A stretch of DNA of 64,000 nucleotides, from the NCBI RefSeq assembly GCF_013009555.1, contig NZ_CP046176.1:4681501-4745500 (forward strand). The letters are read 5' to 3'. This DNA is from Phocaeicola dorei. Lineage in GTDB: Bacteria > Bacteroidota > Bacteroidia > Bacteroidales > Bacteroidaceae. How positions within the stretch are numbered: the first letter of the stretch is position 1; every line of letters begins with the position of its first letter. The notes under the pieces were generated by a model. It was not told the origin of the DNA. It made no database searches and was given only the letters and a program-made list of their open reading frames with translations. A program made the translations under genes and the position numbers. Positions 52,718-60,313 of this stretch are shown piece after piece.

Positions 52718-52748
52718 ATGTTTATGTCGTGATACTTGGAAACGGGTA

Positions 52749-53051
52749 TTACCAATGATCAAATGTTTCCACCCTGTTTTTTTCCAACAGAACAAGAATG
52801 TCCTTTTCCTTATATAATAATTTGCCTCCTACTTTGTAATAGGGCAACCTGCCGTTCATTCTGTAATCAGCCAGCGTCCTTCGTGTCAGCTTCAATTTCT
52901 CCGCCAACTCGCTGTCGGTAATGTAACGCTCTCCGTTCAGGACCGGACGAAGGCTTTTTTCCTGATCATCCAGCATTTTGGACAGGGTGCTTATGTTCCG
53001 AAAAAAACGTATAATCTCAGGGCTTTCTTTAGTCAGTATGAATTGAGTCAT
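52749..53051 (-). CDS. Helix-turn-helix (excisionase/MerR-like) protein
   Basis: 100 residues from the ATG at 53051, which overlaps the preceding gene's stop (ATGA). A helical N-terminus is followed by the winged-helix text ITDSELAEKLKLTRRTLADY and NGRLPYYKVGGKLLYKEKDI, the HTH_17/excisionase form. Such paired small proteins are the rule in Bacteroidetes integrative elements, where they control excision or transfer genes. Its partner is the gene at 53048. Confidence 0.82.
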   Translation of the reverse strand: MTQFILTKESPEIIRFFRNISTLSKMLDDQEKSLRPVLNGERYITDSELAEKLKLTRRTLADYRMNGRLPYYKVGGKLLYKEKDILVLLEKNRVETFDHW

Positions 53052-53341
53052 AAGGATTCGGGGGTTACATGGTGAATACTGTTTTCCAAATAACGTATAA
53101 TATCCTGACGCCTGTAATATACCTTGCGGTCTATATGGCTGTAAGGGATAATCCTGCTTCTCCGAAGTTGCAACAGCTTTCGGGGCGAGACATTCATAAG
53201 CATACACGCTTCCTGGTTATCAATCCAGTCATCCATACTACAGATGCCTCCTCCGCATGTTTCACGCATTTTCTTTTCAACGGCTTCCAAAGCCTCATTC
53301 ATTTCCATGAATGCCTTAGCTTCGATACATACAAACTCCAT
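53048..53341 (-). CDS. Helix-turn-helix (excisionase-like) protein
   Basis: 97 residues from the ATG at 53341 (MEFVCIEAKAFMEMNEALEA). A coiled-coil-like N-terminus (about 8-30) precedes the HTH text DNQEACMLMNVSPRKLLQLR and SRIIPYSHIDRKVYYRRQDI. It is translationally coupled to the next HTH gene by an ATGA overlap. Its upstream side holds decamer tandem repeats (53403-53442), which may be the operator of this pair. Confidence 0.82.
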   Translation of the reverse strand: MEFVCIEAKAFMEMNEALEAVEKKMRETCGGGICSMDDWIDNQEACMLMNVSPRKLLQLRRSRIIPYSHIDRKVYYRRQDIIRYLENSIHHVTPESL

Positions 53342-53402
53342 AAACTCTGCTTTTTTTGTCCGGCACGAAAATACGGGAAGTAAAAGTCGTGGGCAAAAGG
53401 AT

Positions 53403-53442
53403 GTCATCAAACGGCATCAGATGTCATCAGATGTCAGAGACC
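53403..53442. repeat. 10-bp tandem repeats, four units, in a divergent promoter region
   Basis: GTCATCAAAC, GGCATCAGAT, GTCATCAGAT and GTCAGAGACC follow one another without gaps. The 10-bp step puts every unit on the same face of the helix. The core CATCAGATG is the complement of the repeat near 50548-50578. It sits between the HTH pair (minus, start 53341) and the phosphoribosyltransferase (plus, 53552). Confidence 0.7.
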
Positions 53443-53551
53443 GCTCTGTTTGGGGAAGCAAAGTAAAAGAATGGCTAAAAGTCTGTTTCTTTACCGGAAA
53501 AACAGTATTTTTATCCCGGACAATCTGTCCGAAAATAAAAAAACAGGAAAT

Positions 53552-54382
53552 ATGGAACTGATAATCAATGCAACATTATTACTAGCGGCTATCGTTCTCT
53601 GGATATACGGACAATACTGGAGAAAAAAGTGCGGCAAGGTGCTATGCCAATATGCAGCAGCCTACGATGAGCGGGAAGACAGGGAGAAACCGCTACGTCA
53701 AGCCATCATAGCAGGAAATCCTCATGCACCGCTGCTATATGCGCTGACTTGTCCTGAGCTGTTTGATAAAGTCCGTCCGTTGCGATTGTTCTCATTCGGG
53801 AGCATTCGCTGCGTGTTTGCCGGCTATTATTTTCCCAAACGCTTTGAAAGTTGGCTTTGTGATGACCAGTTGGCATTCGTGCAAAAAGTATATGATTTCA
53901 AGGATGGAAAAGACAGCTGTACGGAATATTTTTCACAAGCATTCCTGCTTCTTTCCACTGATGAGGATATTACTGCCATGTTTATGCCGTGCAGCACATC
54001 AGACCGCTATTACAGACGTTTCTCAGGTATTGCCAGTTTTCTGGAAACGCATGGCTATGTCCGTTCAGGACTGGATTTAATATGCATTACGGAAAGCAGG
54101 GAGTGTAAACACGCCTCAGAAAAACGCTCTGAAATAAATACCGCCAACTATATGATGTCAAACGATCTGTACGGAAAGCGCGTGGTGATTGTCGATGATT
54201 TGCTGACCAGCGGATCCAGCCTGATGGAATACGCCCATAATCTGGAAAGGGCCGGTGCCAAAGTGGAAGGTGCTGTATTTCTTGCCCGTACCTTTCAGAT
54301 GTCTTCGCCGGCAAAAGTAAAACGCCTGGTATGGAAACGCCATCTATCAGTCCTGATCCGGAGAAGGTCTGACGACCTGTAA
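53552..54382 (+). CDS. Membrane-anchored phosphoribosyltransferase-domain protein
   Basis: 276 residues from the ATG at 53552, preceded by AGGAAAT; the frame is open to 53450. An N-terminal membrane helix (LIINATLLLAAIVLWIYGQY) is followed by a central region with no known motif, then a type I phosphoribosyltransferase domain (about 170-265) with the PRPP loop VVIVDDLLTSGSSLMEYA. Nearby text SRECKHASEKRSEINTANYM replaces the usual flexible loop. Type I PRTases act in nucleotide salvage or, as ComF-type proteins, in DNA uptake; the substrate is unclear. The gene is alone on the plus strand within the element. Confidence 0.7.
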   Translation: MELIINATLLLAAIVLWIYGQYWRKKCGKVLCQYAAAYDEREDREKPLRQAIIAGNPHAPLLYALTCPELFDKVRPLRLFSFGSIRCVFAGYYFPKRFESWLCDDQLAFVQKVYDFKDGKDSCTEYFSQAFLLLSTDEDITAMFMPCSTSDRYYRRFSGIASFLETHGYVRSGLDLICITESRECKHASEKRSEINTANYMMSNDLYGKRVVIVDDLLTSGSSLMEYAHNLERAGAKVEGAVFLARTFQMSSPAKVKRLVWKRHLSVLIRRRSDDL

Positions 54383-54440
54383 ATTGTAAAGTTTACATTC
54401 GGATTTTACAATTTTACACCTCGAATTTTTACATTTCAAT
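54383..54440. repeat. TTTACA-type repeats upstream of the HTH gene
   Basis: The segment holds the palindrome TGTAAA-G-TTTACA followed by further TTTTACA copies at about 12-bp steps, ending near 54436. This is an operator-like or iteron-like arrangement in the 238-bp gap before the gene at 54621. Confidence 0.5.
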
Positions 54441-54620
54441 TTCCCCTATACTATTTTTATATCTGTATTTTATTGATTTGCAGCATTATATAATTCCCCG
54501 TCCAATATAAACGGATAATGTGGCATACATTTTTCACTGAACATGGCATATACTCTTGAAAGTGCGCACAAGAAAAGGGTATTCCAGTAATAACCTTTAA
54601 AAAGACAGGAGAAAATTGCC

Positions 54621-54914
54621 ATGATGTATATAGACAATGAAGTGCTTGAAAAAATGATAATGACCATAGTGGAAGGTTTTGACCGTATAGAAAAGAAACT
54701 GGACAGGATGGGACGCGTGAAGGACTGCCTGAACGGAGACGAGCTTTTGGACAACTATGACATTGCCAAACTGCTAAACGTGTCATTGCGGACAGTCGCC
54801 CGTTACAGGGAAAAAGGGCTGATCCGTTATTACCAGACGGACGATAACGGGAAAAACTTCTACAGAAGCTCGGAAATACAGGAGTTTTTACAGAAACGTG
54901 GGAAAAAAAGATAA
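54621..54914 (+). CDS. Helix-turn-helix (excisionase-like) protein
   Basis: 97 residues. The N-terminal helix (DNEVLEKMIMTIVEGFDRIE then KKLDRMGRVK) is coiled-coil-like. The HTH has LLDNYDIAKLLNVSLRTVAR and RYREKGLIRYYQTDDNGKNF, the HTH_17 excisionase type. The third such protein in the element, here on the plus strand. The gap 54915-55139 shows no convincing gene beyond a short Lys-rich frame near 55042. Confidence 0.82.
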   Translation: MMYIDNEVLEKMIMTIVEGFDRIEKKLDRMGRVKDCLNGDELLDNYDIAKLLNVSLRTVARYREKGLIRYYQTDDNGKNFYRSSEIQEFLQKRGKKR

Positions 54915-55139: not shown

Positions 55140-55595
55140 TCATGGTATCTCTATATTCATTTTCTTCATATACGCTGTATCCAGCTCAGCACCTTTCCAG
55201 TTTATGTCGGGAGGGAACTGTTTCCATCCGTCTTTGGGAGGGGATAATACCCATTTAGGAACAACTGTTTTTACAACAATTCCTGCTCCATGCATTTTTG
55301 TTGAATATTTAATAAGTAGTCTATCTTCCTCAAGATTATAATTGCTTAGAGTTGCTCTTGTGTAAGTATTATAGCTGTTTCCATTTACTTCATAAGAAAA
55401 ATCATATTGTATTTTGGGATTTTTTCCTACCAGAAAATTGGTATCTTTATACTTGGCAATAGTATAACGTACATTTTGAGAATTATAAAAGTAATATTTA
55501 TCAGAAAAATAGACGTAAATAATATTTCCAGCTAGTAAAATACCTGCTATTATCCAACAATTATCCTTTATCCAATTTATATACTTATTTCCCAT
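55140..55595 (-). CDS. Putative immunity protein of the Hcp cassette
   Basis: 151 residues from the ATG at 55595 (MGNKYINWIK), overlapping the end of the effector gene by 11 bp. It has one N-terminal membrane helix (DNCWIIAGILLAGNIIYVYF, about 10-29) and a periplasm-facing beta-rich domain (YTIAKYKDTNFLVGKNPKIQ, IQYDFSYEVNGNSYNTYTRA, EDRLLIKYSTKMHGAGIVV). No known family. The position, the gene overlap and the predicted inner-membrane anchor are what one expects of an immunity protein to a periplasm- or membrane-acting effector; this is inference from context only. Confidence 0.55.
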   Translation of the reverse strand: MGNKYINWIKDNCWIIAGILLAGNIIYVYFSDKYYFYNSQNVRYTIAKYKDTNFLVGKNPKIQYDFSYEVNGNSYNTYTRATLSNYNLEEDRLLIKYSTKMHGAGIVVKTVVPKWVLSPPKDGWKQFPPDINWKGAELDTAYMKKMNIEIP

Positions 55596-56628
55596 TTGTT
55601 TCTTTATTATTAGTTTTTGGAAAAATAATATCAATCTTGCTCTGAAAATATTCTTGGGTTAATGAAGTCCCCAATTTTATAGCCCCTTGATCTAAGATCT
55701 CCCCAAATCTCAATCCTCGATAGACCGTTTGCATTGCTGTCTCTGTTAAATGTGGAATTTGGGTTGCCGTATTCAGTCCTACTGAAAGAATTATTTCTCT
55801 TTTGTTCTGTATCTCAAAAGGAATCTTACTTTCCACTTTTCCGAAAGCATATCCCAATCCCCAATTTATAAGAAATTTTTCAGCTGAGATTGAATCAAAA
55901 ACACTTTCTTGCTTTTCTATACTGTAATCAAAGGCTGCTGATATAGCAGAACTAAAACCAAGAGGTAGTCCTAACGCATTAGCACCTACTTCAACAAAAT
56001 TAATCTCTCTTACTGCCTTTTTTCCTGCTTCTCTAAAACCCATATCTTTAAAATATGCATTATAAATAACATTAGTACCATACTGCCAAGAAGCATTACC
56101 CACTCCTTCCTTCAGTATCATTTTCAGTGTTGTATGTTTTGGGTACAGCATTTTTGCTGTAATGTTTGACAATGTATGCTGTCCTGGAGCATTTCTCATT
56201 ATGGCATTTGAAATTGTACGCACTCCTTTAGTGCCAATATCTTTCATAGCTGCTGTCAGCCGTGATGTCAAGGCTGCATTATGGGAAACAGAACTTCCCC
56301 ATAATCTGCCACCAACCTTTCCCAAGGAAGTAAAACCGAGTGAAGCTCCTGCGGTGGATATGGCGGAAATAATCCCTGCTGCCGTCAAAGCGGCTTGAAC
56401 AAACTGTTGACTGGCTTCTTCCCTTGCCGCATTGAAAGCCAGATTAAAATAAAACTGTTCTTCCTCTAATGAAGTGGCATTTTTCATACATTTTCTAAAC
56501 AATGCAGGATTATGGTGAAGCACCATACCCAATTGCCTGCGCATCCATCCCGGCATTTTACCTTTCACTACCACTTCCGGCAGCTGGAAGTGGTATTCAT
56601 TCTTGTCATTTGTATTCTTATGTTCCAT
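55585..56628 (-). CDS. Candidate type VI effector following the Hcp protein
   Basis: 347 residues from the ATG at 56628, one base after the Hcp stop. The N-terminus (MEHKNTNDKNEYHFQLPEVV then VKGKMPGWMRRQLGMVLH) has the LPEVVVK-type linker I associate with Bacteroidetes secreted toxins. A Gly/Ala-rich helical region (about 80-112, QAALTAAGIISAISTAGASL) could insert in a membrane. The remaining 230 residues (ISNAIMRNAPGQHTLSNITA, GGWG-like GLGYAFGKVESKIP) show no catalytic motif. There is no signal peptide, as expected of a T6SS cargo. Function as a toxin is inferred from the order Hcp, effector, immunity. Confidence 0.5.
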   Translation of the reverse strand: MEHKNTNDKNEYHFQLPEVVVKGKMPGWMRRQLGMVLHHNPALFRKCMKNATSLEEEQFYFNLAFNAAREEASQQFVQAALTAAGIISAISTAGASLGFTSLGKVGGRLWGSSVSHNAALTSRLTAAMKDIGTKGVRTISNAIMRNAPGQHTLSNITAKMLYPKHTTLKMILKEGVGNASWQYGTNVIYNAYFKDMGFREAGKKAVREINFVEVGANALGLPLGFSSAISAAFDYSIEKQESVFDSISAEKFLINWGLGYAFGKVESKIPFEIQNKREIILSVGLNTATQIPHLTETAMQTVYRGLRFGEILDQGAIKLGTSLTQEYFQSKIDIIFPKTNNKETNGK

Positions 56629-56629
56629 A

Positions 56630-57556
56630 TCACTCTTCTGCCCATTTACCATTATTGAAATCTATATTTCCGAACTTCAGGAACTCTGGTGTGAAAATCA
56701 TTTCCAAAAGGATTCCATCGGTTGCAGTTGATACGGACTTTTTATAGCTTATACAATATGCGTTCTCAAAACGAATGGAAAGAACGGCACTGGACAGCCC
56801 GTCAGGATTCCTGAAAATGATGTAACCGGAGTGTTGCTGCTTGTATTTATACATAGCCCAATGGTTGAACAGAAAATTTGAAGGATGGTTCAGTGATATG
56901 GAAAACAATCCTCCTTTCTCTTCCCATGCGGGTTCTCCTTTGTGATTCACACGTTGCATAAATTCTATGGAGAAAGAGTCCAGACTATACGAATTCAGTT
57001 CTCTGTCCCCGTCAATCTCCATAAATGCCTTGATACATGGGTCAACAACAATGGGAATTGCCTTGTCTGCATTATAGGTCGAGTTGAATATGGTTGCTGT
57101 CCGTTGCGGTTTATCCCGACTTTCCTGCCATTCATAAAACAGAGAGTCCGAGCCTAATGTAACATCTTCACCTTGCAATGTGAGTATGGTTGTGACAAGA
57201 CCTTGTTTGCCAAACCCTTCATAAGAAAACTTCATTGCAATACAGGCAACATTTAGTAATTGCAATGTCTCTTCGGGTATTCTTGTTTCCGAAAGGTCCA
57301 AGACCTCCAGCTGCACATTCAACCTTTCTTCACTTCCAAGAATCCATTTATGAAGATATTGGGGAGGAAATCCCCTGAATGCAACGGTAACCATACCGCC
57401 AATGATAGGAGTGGAAGGTTTTCCGTTATCGCTGATCCCTCTGTCGAAAGAGTATTCCATGCTTTCCACCTCAAAGACATCCGTGAAGAAAGGCACACCG
57501 TCAGAATTTGTATTATAAATGCTGCCTGTTCTCATTATTGTTTTGTATCCAGCCAT
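56630..57556 (-). CDS. Tandem Hcp (TssD)-like type VI tube protein
   Basis: 308 residues from the ATG at 57556 (MAGYKTIMRTGSIYN; 57535 is another option). It contains two related domains. Domain 1 has MEYSFDRGISDNGKPSTPII then GGMVTVAFRGF, LHKWILG and GEDVTLG. Domain 2 has FSIEFMQRVNHKGEPAWEEK then GGLFSISLNHP, FNHWAMY and a final FLKFGNIDFNNGKW. The shared pattern (aromatic-S.D/E.F.R..N..G.P....GG....) is that of Bacteroidetes TssD/Hcp. A fused pair in one chain is unusual, since tube Hcp is normally a single domain of about 130 residues. It probably carries or docks the cargo encoded next. No other T6SS gene is in the window. Confidence 0.65.
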   Translation of the reverse strand: MAGYKTIMRTGSIYNTNSDGVPFFTDVFEVESMEYSFDRGISDNGKPSTPIIGGMVTVAFRGFPPQYLHKWILGSEERLNVQLEVLDLSETRIPEETLQLLNVACIAMKFSYEGFGKQGLVTTILTLQGEDVTLGSDSLFYEWQESRDKPQRTATIFNSTYNADKAIPIVVDPCIKAFMEIDGDRELNSYSLDSFSIEFMQRVNHKGEPAWEEKGGLFSISLNHPSNFLFNHWAMYKYKQQHSGYIIFRNPDGLSSAVLSIRFENAYCISYKKSVSTATDGILLEMIFTPEFLKFGNIDFNNGKWAEE

Positions 57557-57609
57557 AAACCACAATTTTGTTTCGTTTGCAAGTAATGAAAAATAAGGGA
57601 TAATTCCAA

Positions 57610-57629
57610 AAACTATACAAAAATAGTTT
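57610..57629 (-). promoter_or_regulatory. Promoter with overlapping inverted repeat for the Hcp cassette
   Basis: TATTTTTG on the minus strand (57618-57625) fits TAnnTTTG and sits inside a perfect 7-bp inverted repeat AAACTAT/ATAGTTT (57610-57616 with 57623-57629), which could be an operator. It lies about 60 bp upstream of the Hcp ATG, so the cassette has its own promoter. Confidence 0.5.
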
Positions 57630-57660
57630 CACATATATACAAGAAAGTGAGGGAAATATA

Positions 57661-57710
57661 AAAAAGGCAGTTTCCCTTTGTCTGCCCAGACAATAGGAAA
57701 ACGCCTTTTT
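57661..57710. terminator. Terminator after the PRTRC operon
   Basis: AAAAAGGC at 57661-57668 pairs with GCCTTTTT at 57703-57710, with inner pairs TTTCC/GGAAA and TCTG/(C)AGA. It is symmetrical with A- and T-runs, between the ThiF gene end (57716) and the Hcp promoter. Confidence 0.7.
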
Positions 57711-57715
57711 GTGTT

Positions 57716-58495
57716 CTATACCGGGATGGGGTTTACCCGTAACGTGTCAAGATTGAGATAGGCTCCCCGGTAGAACGTTCTTCCTTCCCTGAGCATGCGC
57801 CACAGGACGTCGCATCCGATTTGTGCCAACATGGAATTGATGAAGAGATCCTGCTTTTGCAATGCCTCCGTCAGCGAGCAGCTCGGTCCCGAATCCTTCT
57901 CCCTGATGGTGGAATAAGGAACTTCCTCCGTTATGACGTTCATCTTGGGTATAGGCAGGTATTCAGTGGAGGAGGGCTGCGGTATCTTGCTTTTGACATT
58001 TCCTATCAGTACTTGTCCGGTGGTCTGGGCATTGCCGAAATCCATCCAGTATATCGGTGATTTCTCGTCATCGTATGAACGTTCCCTATGCTTTTTCAAA
58101 AAACGCCACAGACCGGTCCGTGAACGGGTGGTGTCCGTGCAGGTGATGATGATATTCGCCAAAACGGAATCTGATGTTCCTGACGGATAGCATTGCCCTT
58201 TTGCCTCCCATGAAAAGCCGAAAAAGCGGTTGATACGGGTTACAAGTGCCACCGCCTTGTTCAGTCCGAGCTCGGATTCGCTGAACAACTGGCGTCCGAT
58301 GTTCGCTTCCGTGACAGTATCGGGGTCAAAAACCGTCACGTGCAGGCCCGGATGTCCGAGTGCCTGCAATGCGATACTCATCCTTGCCAGATTGGTGGCC
58401 ACCTGCGATCCGGTTCCGCCTGCACCGATTATGAAAACGGTTACGGGATGGTGGGGATTGAGCAGGTATCTGTCTGTATAATGAATCTTTTTCAT
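57716..58495 (-). CDS. PRTRC system ThiF family protein
   Basis: A 259-residue E1-like adenylating enzyme. The nucleotide motif is VFIIGAGGTGSQVATNL (20-36), followed by VTVFDPDTVTEANIGRQLFS, with the conserved Asp and Arg/Gln of the E1 active site. IIITCTDTTRSRTGL is the catalytic loop region. No CxxC zinc pairs are seen. In PRTRC clusters a ThiF protein accompanies proteins A to F and is thought to be involved in a ubiquitin-like modification or plasmid/element maintenance; the mechanism is not established. It overlaps the upstream gene by four bases (58492-58495). Confidence 0.85.
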   Translation of the reverse strand: MKKIHYTDRYLLNPHHPVTVFIIGAGGTGSQVATNLARMSIALQALGHPGLHVTVFDPDTVTEANIGRQLFSESELGLNKAVALVTRINRFFGFSWEAKGQCYPSGTSDSVLANIIITCTDTTRSRTGLWRFLKKHRERSYDDEKSPIYWMDFGNAQTTGQVLIGNVKSKIPQPSSTEYLPIPKMNVITEEVPYSTIREKDSGPSCSLTEALQKQDLFINSMLAQIGCDVLWRMLREGRTFYRGAYLNLDTLRVNPIPV

Positions 58496-59203: not shown

Positions 59204-60313
59204 TTAAAAGTTGTCATCAATATAGTCTGTAAAACGCACCAACCATCTGGAAAGCCTTTCCGGATAGTCATCCATCTGAAAAAGACAGTCCGTTTCCGGT
59301 GTCAGTAGCTTGTAAGTGACCGGAGTAAGGGCATAGACCTCCCGGTAGTCCGAATTCATATACTCCTTGACACACTCCGTCAGCGTATCACCAGTAGAAT
59401 AGACCAGCATGACCTGGCTTTCCATTCCCACCGGGGGAAAATCGCATTCCTCTTCATAAGCCCAATCGTACTGGTAGCCTGTCAGGACCGGGCTTTCCGG
59501 AGTAATCAATGCCATGCCGTCCTCTATCAGTTCCAACAGCTTCAGCTCTTTTTCCTTTTTTGTCCGGTAATTCCGCACAGCCTCTTCCAAAGACTTGCAG
59601 AACGGTTTGCCCGACATCCGTCTGAGTGCTTTCATCCGTTTTCCAGACTGATAGGAATCCGCCAGTCGTCTGTTCGCCCTGATTTCCTTCGGGGAAGCAT
59701 CGGAATCCCGGTTTCCCCAGTCTTCCAGCTCTTCTATGGCAAAGTCATAATAAAATGTCTCGGTAACATCGTACAGCCCGTGATGCCGGACAAATTGCCG
59801 GATGAATTCCCTGACAATGTCCTTCAATGGTACCGGAAGCCGTTCCGTAAAATCAACCGGAATCCAGAACAAAGCAGGTTCCGGCCAGTCGTGATGGCGG
59901 AACAGACAGAAATGCAGCCTTCCGCTTTTCTTTTCCAGATTGATACACTCCGGTACACACTCTTCCATAACTCTGTACAACTCGGTAATATTCAGGCGGG
60001 GGCACCCCCCTTTCCTGTATCGGAAAGGGAGTTTTATGCCCATAAGTTCCGCATATCTTGATGCCGACCGGTAGAGATAGTCAAAATTTTCCGGAGTCGT
60101 GAGATTGACCGGAGAATCATTATCCATATCCTGATGCCAATAATCCGGTGCAAGGGGTGTGATTCTACCGGTCAGAAAAGCATTGTGCTTCCCGGTGGCG
60201 GAAGTATCCTTCTTTTCCGTTCCGAGGTTCCCCTTCGGATGTGGGACGAACTTACTGAGAGAATAATCAGCCGTGCCAGTCCATCCTTGGCTTGTTCTGA
60301 AAGCTGTCTGCAT
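59204..60313 (-). CDS. PRTRC system protein F (probable)
   Basis: A 369-residue protein in the position of PRTRC F, between C and B. Motifs include ENFDYLYRSASRYAELMGIK, YRVMEECVPECINLEKKSGR, LHFCLFRHHDWPEPALFWIP and VREFIRQFVRHHGLYDVTET. No catalytic motif is evident. The assignment rests on order and on memory of the family. An ATG four bases after the C gene opens a different frame (MNKKKKDKETCRQLSEQA...) that closes at 60172; the frame used here is the one that stays open, and it begins at 60313. Confidence 0.6.
   Translation of the reverse strand: MQTAFRTSQGWTGTADYSLSKFVPHPKGNLGTEKKDTSATGKHNAFLTGRITPLAPDYWHQDMDNDSPVNLTTPENFDYLYRSASRYAELMGIKLPFRYRKGGCPRLNITELYRVMEECVPECINLEKKSGRLHFCLFRHHDWPEPALFWIPVDFTERLPVPLKDIVREFIRQFVRHHGLYDVTETFYYDFAIEELEDWGNRDSDASPKEIRANRRLADSYQSGKRMKALRRMSGKPFCKSLEEAVRNYRTKKEKELKLLELIEDGMALITPESPVLTGYQYDWAYEEECDFPPVGMESQVMLVYSTGDTLTECVKEYMNSDYREVYALTPVTYKLLTPETDCLFQMDDYPERLSRWLVRFTDYIDDNF

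Follow-up and report, generated by a model that had tools for sequence, protein, structure and literature searches.

A cassette of three minus-strand genes occupies positions 55140-57556 of the window, the 64,000-nucleotide stretch of the Phocaeicola dorei genome that was analyzed (G000:C1:4681501-4745500; the source genome, G000, is one 5.6-Mb contig). Our analysis suggests, with a probability of about 0.68, that this is an accessory cassette for type VI secretion system (T6SS) cargo, carried by a GA2-like integrative element, and that a ring of fused Hcp2-Hcp3 proteins would carry the product of the second gene and the product of the third would protect the producing cell. The first gene joins two Hcp domains of different classes in one chain, and a related genome shows the insertion site without the cassette. 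The tight packing of the three genes that a preliminary description had read from the letters of the window is borne out: one base separates the carrier gene from the effector gene, and the effector and third genes overlap by 11 bases. The features of the cassette are as follows, in window coordinates.

56630..57556, minus strand: fused Hcp2-Hcp3 (tandem TssD) carrier gene, 308 amino acids (aa); from PF17642, PDB matches and the ratio of nonsynonymous to synonymous substitution rates (dN/dS)
57128..57556, minus strand: Hcp2-type N-terminal domain, residues 1-143; from class profiles and tree
57047..57127, minus strand: inter-domain linker, residues 144-170; from low confidence in the fold model
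56630..57046, minus strand: Hcp3-type C-terminal domain, residues 171-308; from class profiles and tree
55585..56628, minus strand: candidate T6SS effector, 347 aa; from position and a constant front with a divergent back relative to P. coprocola
56344..56628, minus strand: effector constant N-terminal segment, about residues 1-95, proposed carrier-loading part; from DNA identity and dN/dS
55585..56343, minus strand: effector variable C-terminal part, proposed toxin; from the missing blastn match to P. coprocola and lower GC content
55140..55595, minus strand: candidate immunity gene, 151 aa, one predicted membrane helix; from overlap and relatives

The fused carrier and its distribution

The 308-aa carrier matches PF17642, the Bacteroidota TssD/Hcp family, in two stretches at 2.7e-35 (121.5 bits against a curated cut-off of 25.8); scored apart in one 332-aa open frame, the stretches give 1.8e-19 and 9.8e-14. 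Both repeated motifs, GG...HKW and GG...NHW, from which two Hcp-like domains had been proposed earlier, are present. The earlier term 'tandem Hcp' holds as far as the two TssD domains go and is refined in that they are of Hcp2 and Hcp3 type, not two copies of one. Carrier residues 1-143 match Hcp2 of Bacteroides fragilis (PDB 9vnd_C) at 1.6e-13, and residues 171-305 match Hcp3 of the same entry (9vnd_B) at 4.4e-14. Class profiles were built from seven of the 11 first genes of separate hcp pairs, seven of the 11 second genes and seven single TssD genes, leaving out the hcp pair that precedes tssE in four GA2-like loci. Residues 1-150 of the carrier score 50.6 bits with the Hcp2-like profile, 26.1 with the Hcp3-like and 18.9 with the canonical TssD profile, while residues 151-308 score 82.9 bits with the Hcp3-like, 36.5 with the canonical and 25.6 with the Hcp2-like profile.

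A tree of these domains gives the same assignment. Its input of 57 domains, which omits the duplicate loci L007 and L015 and every domain scoring below 60, was reduced to 50 rows by removing four domains shorter than 115 aa and three identical rows. The two fused N-terminal halves group with the 11 first genes of separate pairs (support 95/92), and the two fused C-terminal halves with the 11 second genes (99/98); the exact placement of the fused halves is soft because the program flags long branches. By profile and tree placement, then, the carrier is one Hcp2-type and one Hcp3-type subunit and no simple duplication. On the same contig, an unfused first gene matches Hcp2 at 1.7e-44 and an unfused second gene matches Hcp3 at 1.1e-35, so that the single fused chain has its domains in the order of the hcp2 and hcp3 genes; the fused N-terminal half is 22% identical to the resident Hcp2-type protein. 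Between the source genome and P. coprocola (G006) the carrier shows dN 0.065, dS 0.51 and dN/dS 0.127, with both halves constrained, and this purifying selection on both halves makes a sequencing slip unlikely.

The genomes searched for the fusion come from collections holding one genome per species. A TssD search at E 1e-5 covered 61 genomes of the genus, 148 of the order and 296 of the phylum and found carriers in 15, 5 and 17, respectively, or 35 different genomes, the source genome being in each set. Of these 35, two have a pair of TssD domains in a single frame: the source genome and P. coprocola. Searches with the carrier itself found two of 61 genus genomes (1e-30), two of 399 family genomes (1e-15) and, in the phylum, one of 395 at 1e-15, the source genome itself. 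The order search gave two of 393 at 1e-20, the source genome and G337; in G337 the match spans two separate genes and the stop that divides them. In a search of genome contigs, only P. coprocola DSM 17136 was retained from 80 candidate stretches. Its fused gene lies on two contigs that share 3,455 bp at 99.86% identity, either two copies or an unmerged overlap, and is flanked by tyrosine-recombinase genes, one on each contig. No relative of the fused Hcp was found in plasmids, in phage records or in a close-relative scan of viral contigs.

TssC is present in 14 of the 61 genus genomes, and the sole TssD carrier in which it was not found is P. coprocola (a draft, 99% complete), whose TssD matches are confined to the fused gene. 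Hcp pairs considered as orphans in G009, G012, G013, G017 and G057 were dropped, TssC being present in each. The P. coprocola copy points to carrier and effector moving as a unit without the secretion machine. The literature searched, judged by titles and the starts of abstracts, yielded no prior fused or two-domain Hcp; within the limits of that literature, the fused heteromeric carrier appears to be new, and each part of the cassette belongs to a known kind.

Insertion site and host element

The genome G018 is collinear with the element on both sides of the cassette (window 52748-54909 and 57715-66454). The preliminary description had placed the cassette in a mobile element, and this reading is supported. 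Between the aligned flanks lie 2.8 kb in the window versus 0.85 kb in G018. At the cassette site G018 has an intact NYN/OST-HTH gene (L098:2067-2771, NYN 2.7e-31) that ends 83 bp from thiF. The window retains only about 190 nucleotides of the 3' end of this gene (82% identity over 189 nucleotides), and the cassette stands between that remnant and thiF; its arrival may have removed the rest of the gene. The bordering features are listed below.

57716..58495, minus strand: PRTRC ThiF gene, last in the PRTRC cluster, bounding the cassette upstream; TIGR03736, 4.5e-70
57655..57720, minus strand: terminator hairpin between thiF and the cassette; from folding energy and z score
55095..55150, minus strand: hairpin at the cassette end, also part of the older NYN gene's 3' end; from folding energy and z score
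54948..55133, plus strand: 3' remnant of the NYN/OST-HTH gene; from identity to G018

Terminators had been proposed on both sides of the cassette, and hairpins do stand on both. The one after thiF (-24.8 kcal/mol, z -5.6) has a T run. The one 3' of the third gene (-24.6 kcal/mol, z -5.3) has no T run after it and is part of the older gene's 3' end; a similar inverted repeat was seen by eye at the same place in G018. A sigma-70 scan returned 11 sites against 9.0 +/- 2.4 in shuffles and none at 57610-57629, where a promoter had been suggested. Bacteroidota promoters differ from the sigma-70 consensus, which may therefore not suit them. The neighbors of the cassette are thiF, which closes a PRTRC cluster (thiF, B, C, E), and, on the other side, a small HTH gene (54621-54914). 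The PRTRC cluster also contains a 369-aa gene (window 59204-60313) with no Pfam match at E 0.01.

Further along, in a region largely collinear with G018, are TssC, TssN, TssR, VgrG-, ClpV- and TssE-like proteins, together with a MobA-type relaxase and a TetR-like regulator (named by inspection). This T6SS lies 15-53 kb from the cassette, apparently in the same element, and includes the order hcp2, hcp3, variable effector and small hydrophobic protein. The stretch 4769471-4786377 of the source genome holds five single TssD frames and one longer frame, which fits the GA2 locus as described in PMC4714493, with five Hcp genes and a larger evolved Hcp. 'GA2-like' is accordingly a label taken from the TssD frame count, and profile or sequence matches cover TssC, TssN, TssR and the ClpV-, VgrG- and TssE-like proteins. 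At each of the four GA2-like loci examined (G000, G018, G025 and G011), a separate hcp2-hcp3 pair precedes an effector candidate of 291-361 aa, unlike from locus to locus, and a protein of 120-172 aa that looks hydrophobic by eye. Loading onto a resident or incoming T6SS had been suggested for the cassette. Since T6SS genes lie in apparently the same element, no incoming T6SS is needed in the source genome; P. coprocola, in which the search found no TssC, would require one.

Two other features of this region of the source genome were recorded. Near the T6SS, G000:C1:4785946-4787013 (L009:11146-12213) encodes an Hcp-like domain with an SsdA-type deaminase-like C-terminus, an evolved-Hcp effector candidate. 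Beyond the T6SS, five 605-aa frames stand head to tail with a period of 2489 bp (G000:C1:4793267-4805040; end of L009 and L010:1-10340). The one copy scanned has reverse transcriptase, maturase and HNH domains, and group II intron RNA occurs four times in L010; the five-copy array could be real or an effect of assembly.

The effector and immunity candidates

The second gene has an alternative in-frame ATG at 56652, which would give a 355-aa form; the corresponding gene behind the fused hcp of P. coprocola encodes 316 aa. The DNA of the window and of P. coprocola is 88.3% identical across 56339-57558, where the blastn match ends. Ungapped identity per 30 nucleotides of the effector gene is 0.80-1.0 over codons 1-90, 0.60 over codons 91-100 and 0.23-0.40 over codons 101-140, and residues 1-94 show a dN/dS of 0.064. 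GC content is 0.44 in the constant part, 0.364 in the variable part and 0.311 in the third gene, the drop from 0.44 to 0.36 coinciding with the end of the constant part. The variable part has no blastn match in P. coprocola; weak protein similarity persists between the two back parts, which may therefore have diverged fast rather than been swapped. The search for homologues with a constant carrier and a varying effector, which the preliminary description had called for, thus found a near-identical front and a strongly diverged back. This one comparison, with the sole clear relative found, makes the second gene a candidate polymorphic effector.

Database searches with the effector candidate gave no Pfam or NCBIfam match above cut-off, only chance-level HlyB matches in the PDB with phmmer (best E 0.96), and nothing usable in PADLOC (best 0.032) or PHROGs (best 0.27). 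No match occurs in plasmids or phages and no confirmed relative in viral contigs. A match in G001 (0.002, 67 residues, one internal stop) was not counted as a relative. No 19-residue hydropathy window exceeds 1.6; the highest value is 1.53, at residue 87 in the 355-aa form.

The third protein was described earlier as overlapping the second and having one membrane helix; the overlap amounts to the 11 bases given above, and the helix is predicted from a single 19-residue hydropathy peak above 1.6. Relatives occur in three other Phocaeicola genomes of the 61 searched: G025 (twice), G006 and G053. The front varies, and the last 40 or so residues (window 55140-55265) are nearly invariant even in relatives that share 42-50% identity overall (L094, L095, L096), least so in G053; it is this end that blastn detects between them. 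The third gene also matches phrog_4495, of unknown function, at 4.5e-4, and no confirmed relative of it was found in viral contigs. In G025, the gene for an 89%-identical protein stands in a row with two other small genes, and two of these three are relatives of the third gene; in G053, the relative adjoins a relative of a GA2-like small protein (27%, 4e-9 in this single comparison). The P. coprocola relative sits on another contig, without immunity-like neighbors. Its overlap with the effector candidate and its relatives in the immunity-like clusters of G025 and G053 mark the third gene as a candidate immunity gene.

A different origin of the third gene, which we consider unlikely but the most serious competitor, is that it was acquired independently as an orphan immunity gene against the toxins of other strains and is not the cognate antidote. 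The G025 row would fit this, as G025 has no match to the effector, and so would the P. coprocola and G053 relatives, which are on stretches without a fused hcp. The 11-base overlap argues instead for a tie to the effector, as does the position of the gene, which is that of the small protein after the effector candidates in GA2-like loci. The G025 stretch itself (L094:7573-16463) contains a tyrosine recombinase, an extended Hcp, a CHAP-domain protein and a LysM protein in addition to the row of three small genes.

The proposed ring and its relation to known systems

In the mechanism that we propose, an Hcp2-type subunit is tied to an Hcp3-type subunit through a linker of about 27 residues, and three such chains would close into a ring of six Hcp domains in which Hcp2 and Hcp3 alternate. 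The ring would assemble around the effector, holding its constant N-terminal segment of about 95 residues, and the loaded ring would be stacked into the TssD tube that the element's own T6SS builds. When the tube is fired, the variable C-terminal part of the effector would act in the target cell, probably at the envelope, and the small, membrane-anchored third protein would shield the producer. Chain fusion would set the Hcp2:Hcp3 ratio and keep matched halves together when the cassette moves.

The three-chain ring is suggested by a single-chain fold model of the carrier, which superposes on T5-type tail-tube proteins across both domains. Since the fused tube pair of the T5 type forms trimeric pseudo-hexamers, a three-chain ring of fused Hcp is plausible on this model and analogy, and the design, called unusual in the preliminary description, has a precedent in phage T5 pb6. 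We suggest more tentatively, and at somewhat less than even odds, that this natural fusion of heteromeric Hcp subunits makes up the first T6SS ring known to consist of three chains with pseudo-hexameric symmetry. Such a ring would be portable and carry an effector class of its own; it could insert into elements that bear a T6SS, or persist in T6SS-free genomes until one arrives.

Several observations weigh against the proposed mechanism. The carrier model is of middling confidence (mean predicted local distance difference test, pLDDT, 65; predicted template modeling score 0.66), with pLDDT below 50 at residues 142-174. A joint alignment of fused and single Hcp proteins (A4) was not used, the singles having fallen on the C-terminal half; the alignment that fed the model (A5) took in first-gene singles only, and its C-terminal half rests on two rows. 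Foldseek itself superposes the model poorly on those tail proteins (root-mean-square deviation 9-13, TM score 0.38-0.54). AlphaFold2 failed on the effector (pLDDT 35 from two alignment rows). In P. coprocola there is no open frame of at least 80 aa right after the effector and before the next gene. The effector candidates of the four GA2-like loci share a short front motif that is absent from the window effector; the five matches of this motif in 2,745 frames carry no significance because it was composed after viewing four of those sequences. (The LysM protein of the G025 stretch bears the motif.) The idea of a uniform front for all Hcp-linked effectors was dropped on this account, and the absence of the motif leads us to propose that the fused ring would have a cargo class of its own. 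Finally, PDB entry 9vnd is titled as an Hcp2-Hcp3 heterohexamer with effector Bte1 from B. fragilis, and chain counts over the two heterohexamer entries (9vnd and 9vne) are eight Hcp2 and four Hcp3. These suggest a ratio of 4:2 in B. fragilis, as against 3:3 from three fused chains.

An alternative is a mixed ring, in which two fused chains would be completed by two free subunits of Hcp2 type supplied by the element's own T6SS. Its ratio of four Hcp2 to two Hcp3 would be the one that the counts of 8 and 4 suggest for B. fragilis. A free Hcp2-type gene is indeed nearby; set against this, the fused N-terminal half shares just 22% identity with the resident Hcp2-type protein, and P. coprocola, with TssD matches only in the fused gene, cannot form such a ring from its own genes. 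We regard a mixed ring as rather improbable. Less probable again is that the fused protein remains in the producing cell, where it would serve the effector as chaperone or adaptor and stay out of the tube. Hcp proteins are described as acting as chaperones (PMC4714493), the fused protein is divergent from the single tube subunits, and one chain might hold cargo with no ring around it. Both domains nonetheless retain the TssD profile under purifying selection, and in the model their placement seems to resemble that of fused tube proteins. That the fused gene is the tail-tube gene of a decayed phage with unrelated neighbors is very improbable, since its whole-chain matches to phage tail proteins are outweighed by the lack of any PHROG match for the carrier up to E 1, the lack of matches in phage records and, for close relatives, in viral contigs, the specific affinity to T6SS Hcp2 and Hcp3, and the T6SS-like gene order.

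Among known systems, the carrier shares its two Hcp classes with the Hcp2-Hcp3/Bte1 complex of B. fragilis NCTC 9343 (9vnd and 9vne, probably from Zheng et al. 2026 Nat Commun, to judge from the reference list of PMC13323088). In B. fragilis these are two separate proteins, apparently at 4:2, whereas the carrier is one chain that alone would give 3:3; nor does any PDB chain match the window effector beyond the chance level noted above. The GA2-like loci (L008, L074, L075 and L076), in which a variable effector region follows the hcp pair (PMC4714493), have the same order of Hcp2, Hcp3, variable effector candidate and small protein. The cassette differs from them in standing outside the T6SS operons, after PRTRC genes, in its fused Hcp genes and in an effector without the front motif. 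An evolved Hcp, in the same source, is an Hcp with a C-terminal toxin domain. It resembles the carrier in adding an extension to an Hcp domain; in the carrier, the added part is itself an Hcp domain, and a separate protein is the toxin candidate. The acquired interbacterial defense and orphan immunity clusters of Bacteroidales (PMC12247911) are effector-free arrays, and resemble the G025 relatives of the third gene in their row of small genes and a tyrosine recombinase on the stretch; the third gene in the window, in contrast, is single and overlaps its effector candidate.

The reason for several Hcp proteins per T6SS in gut Bacteroidales was called unknown in 2016 (PMC4714493); PDB entries titled as Hcp2-Hcp3 heterohexamers had appeared by 2026. 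That a natural fusion joins exactly Hcp2 and Hcp3, in the same order and next to a cargo candidate of its own, suggests that the two work as a functional pair. The subunit ratio is fixed by the fusion and could be compared by measurement with the 4:2 proposed for B. fragilis, and the fused protein would allow cargo rings of Hcp to be studied through one chain. The closest architectural parallel is pb6 of phage T5, which, according to PMC5717097, has two tube domains in one chain that arose by duplication and forms a trimer with pseudo-hexameric symmetry. Both proteins fuse two tube domains, and the carrier model superposes over both. The likeness is in architecture only: pb6 is a phage tail protein with duplicated domains, whereas the carrier is a T6SS Hcp of two classes, with no PHROG match and no match in phage records. 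If the proposed ring is real, T6SS tube proteins would have followed the path of phage T5, starting from two subunits that were already specialized.

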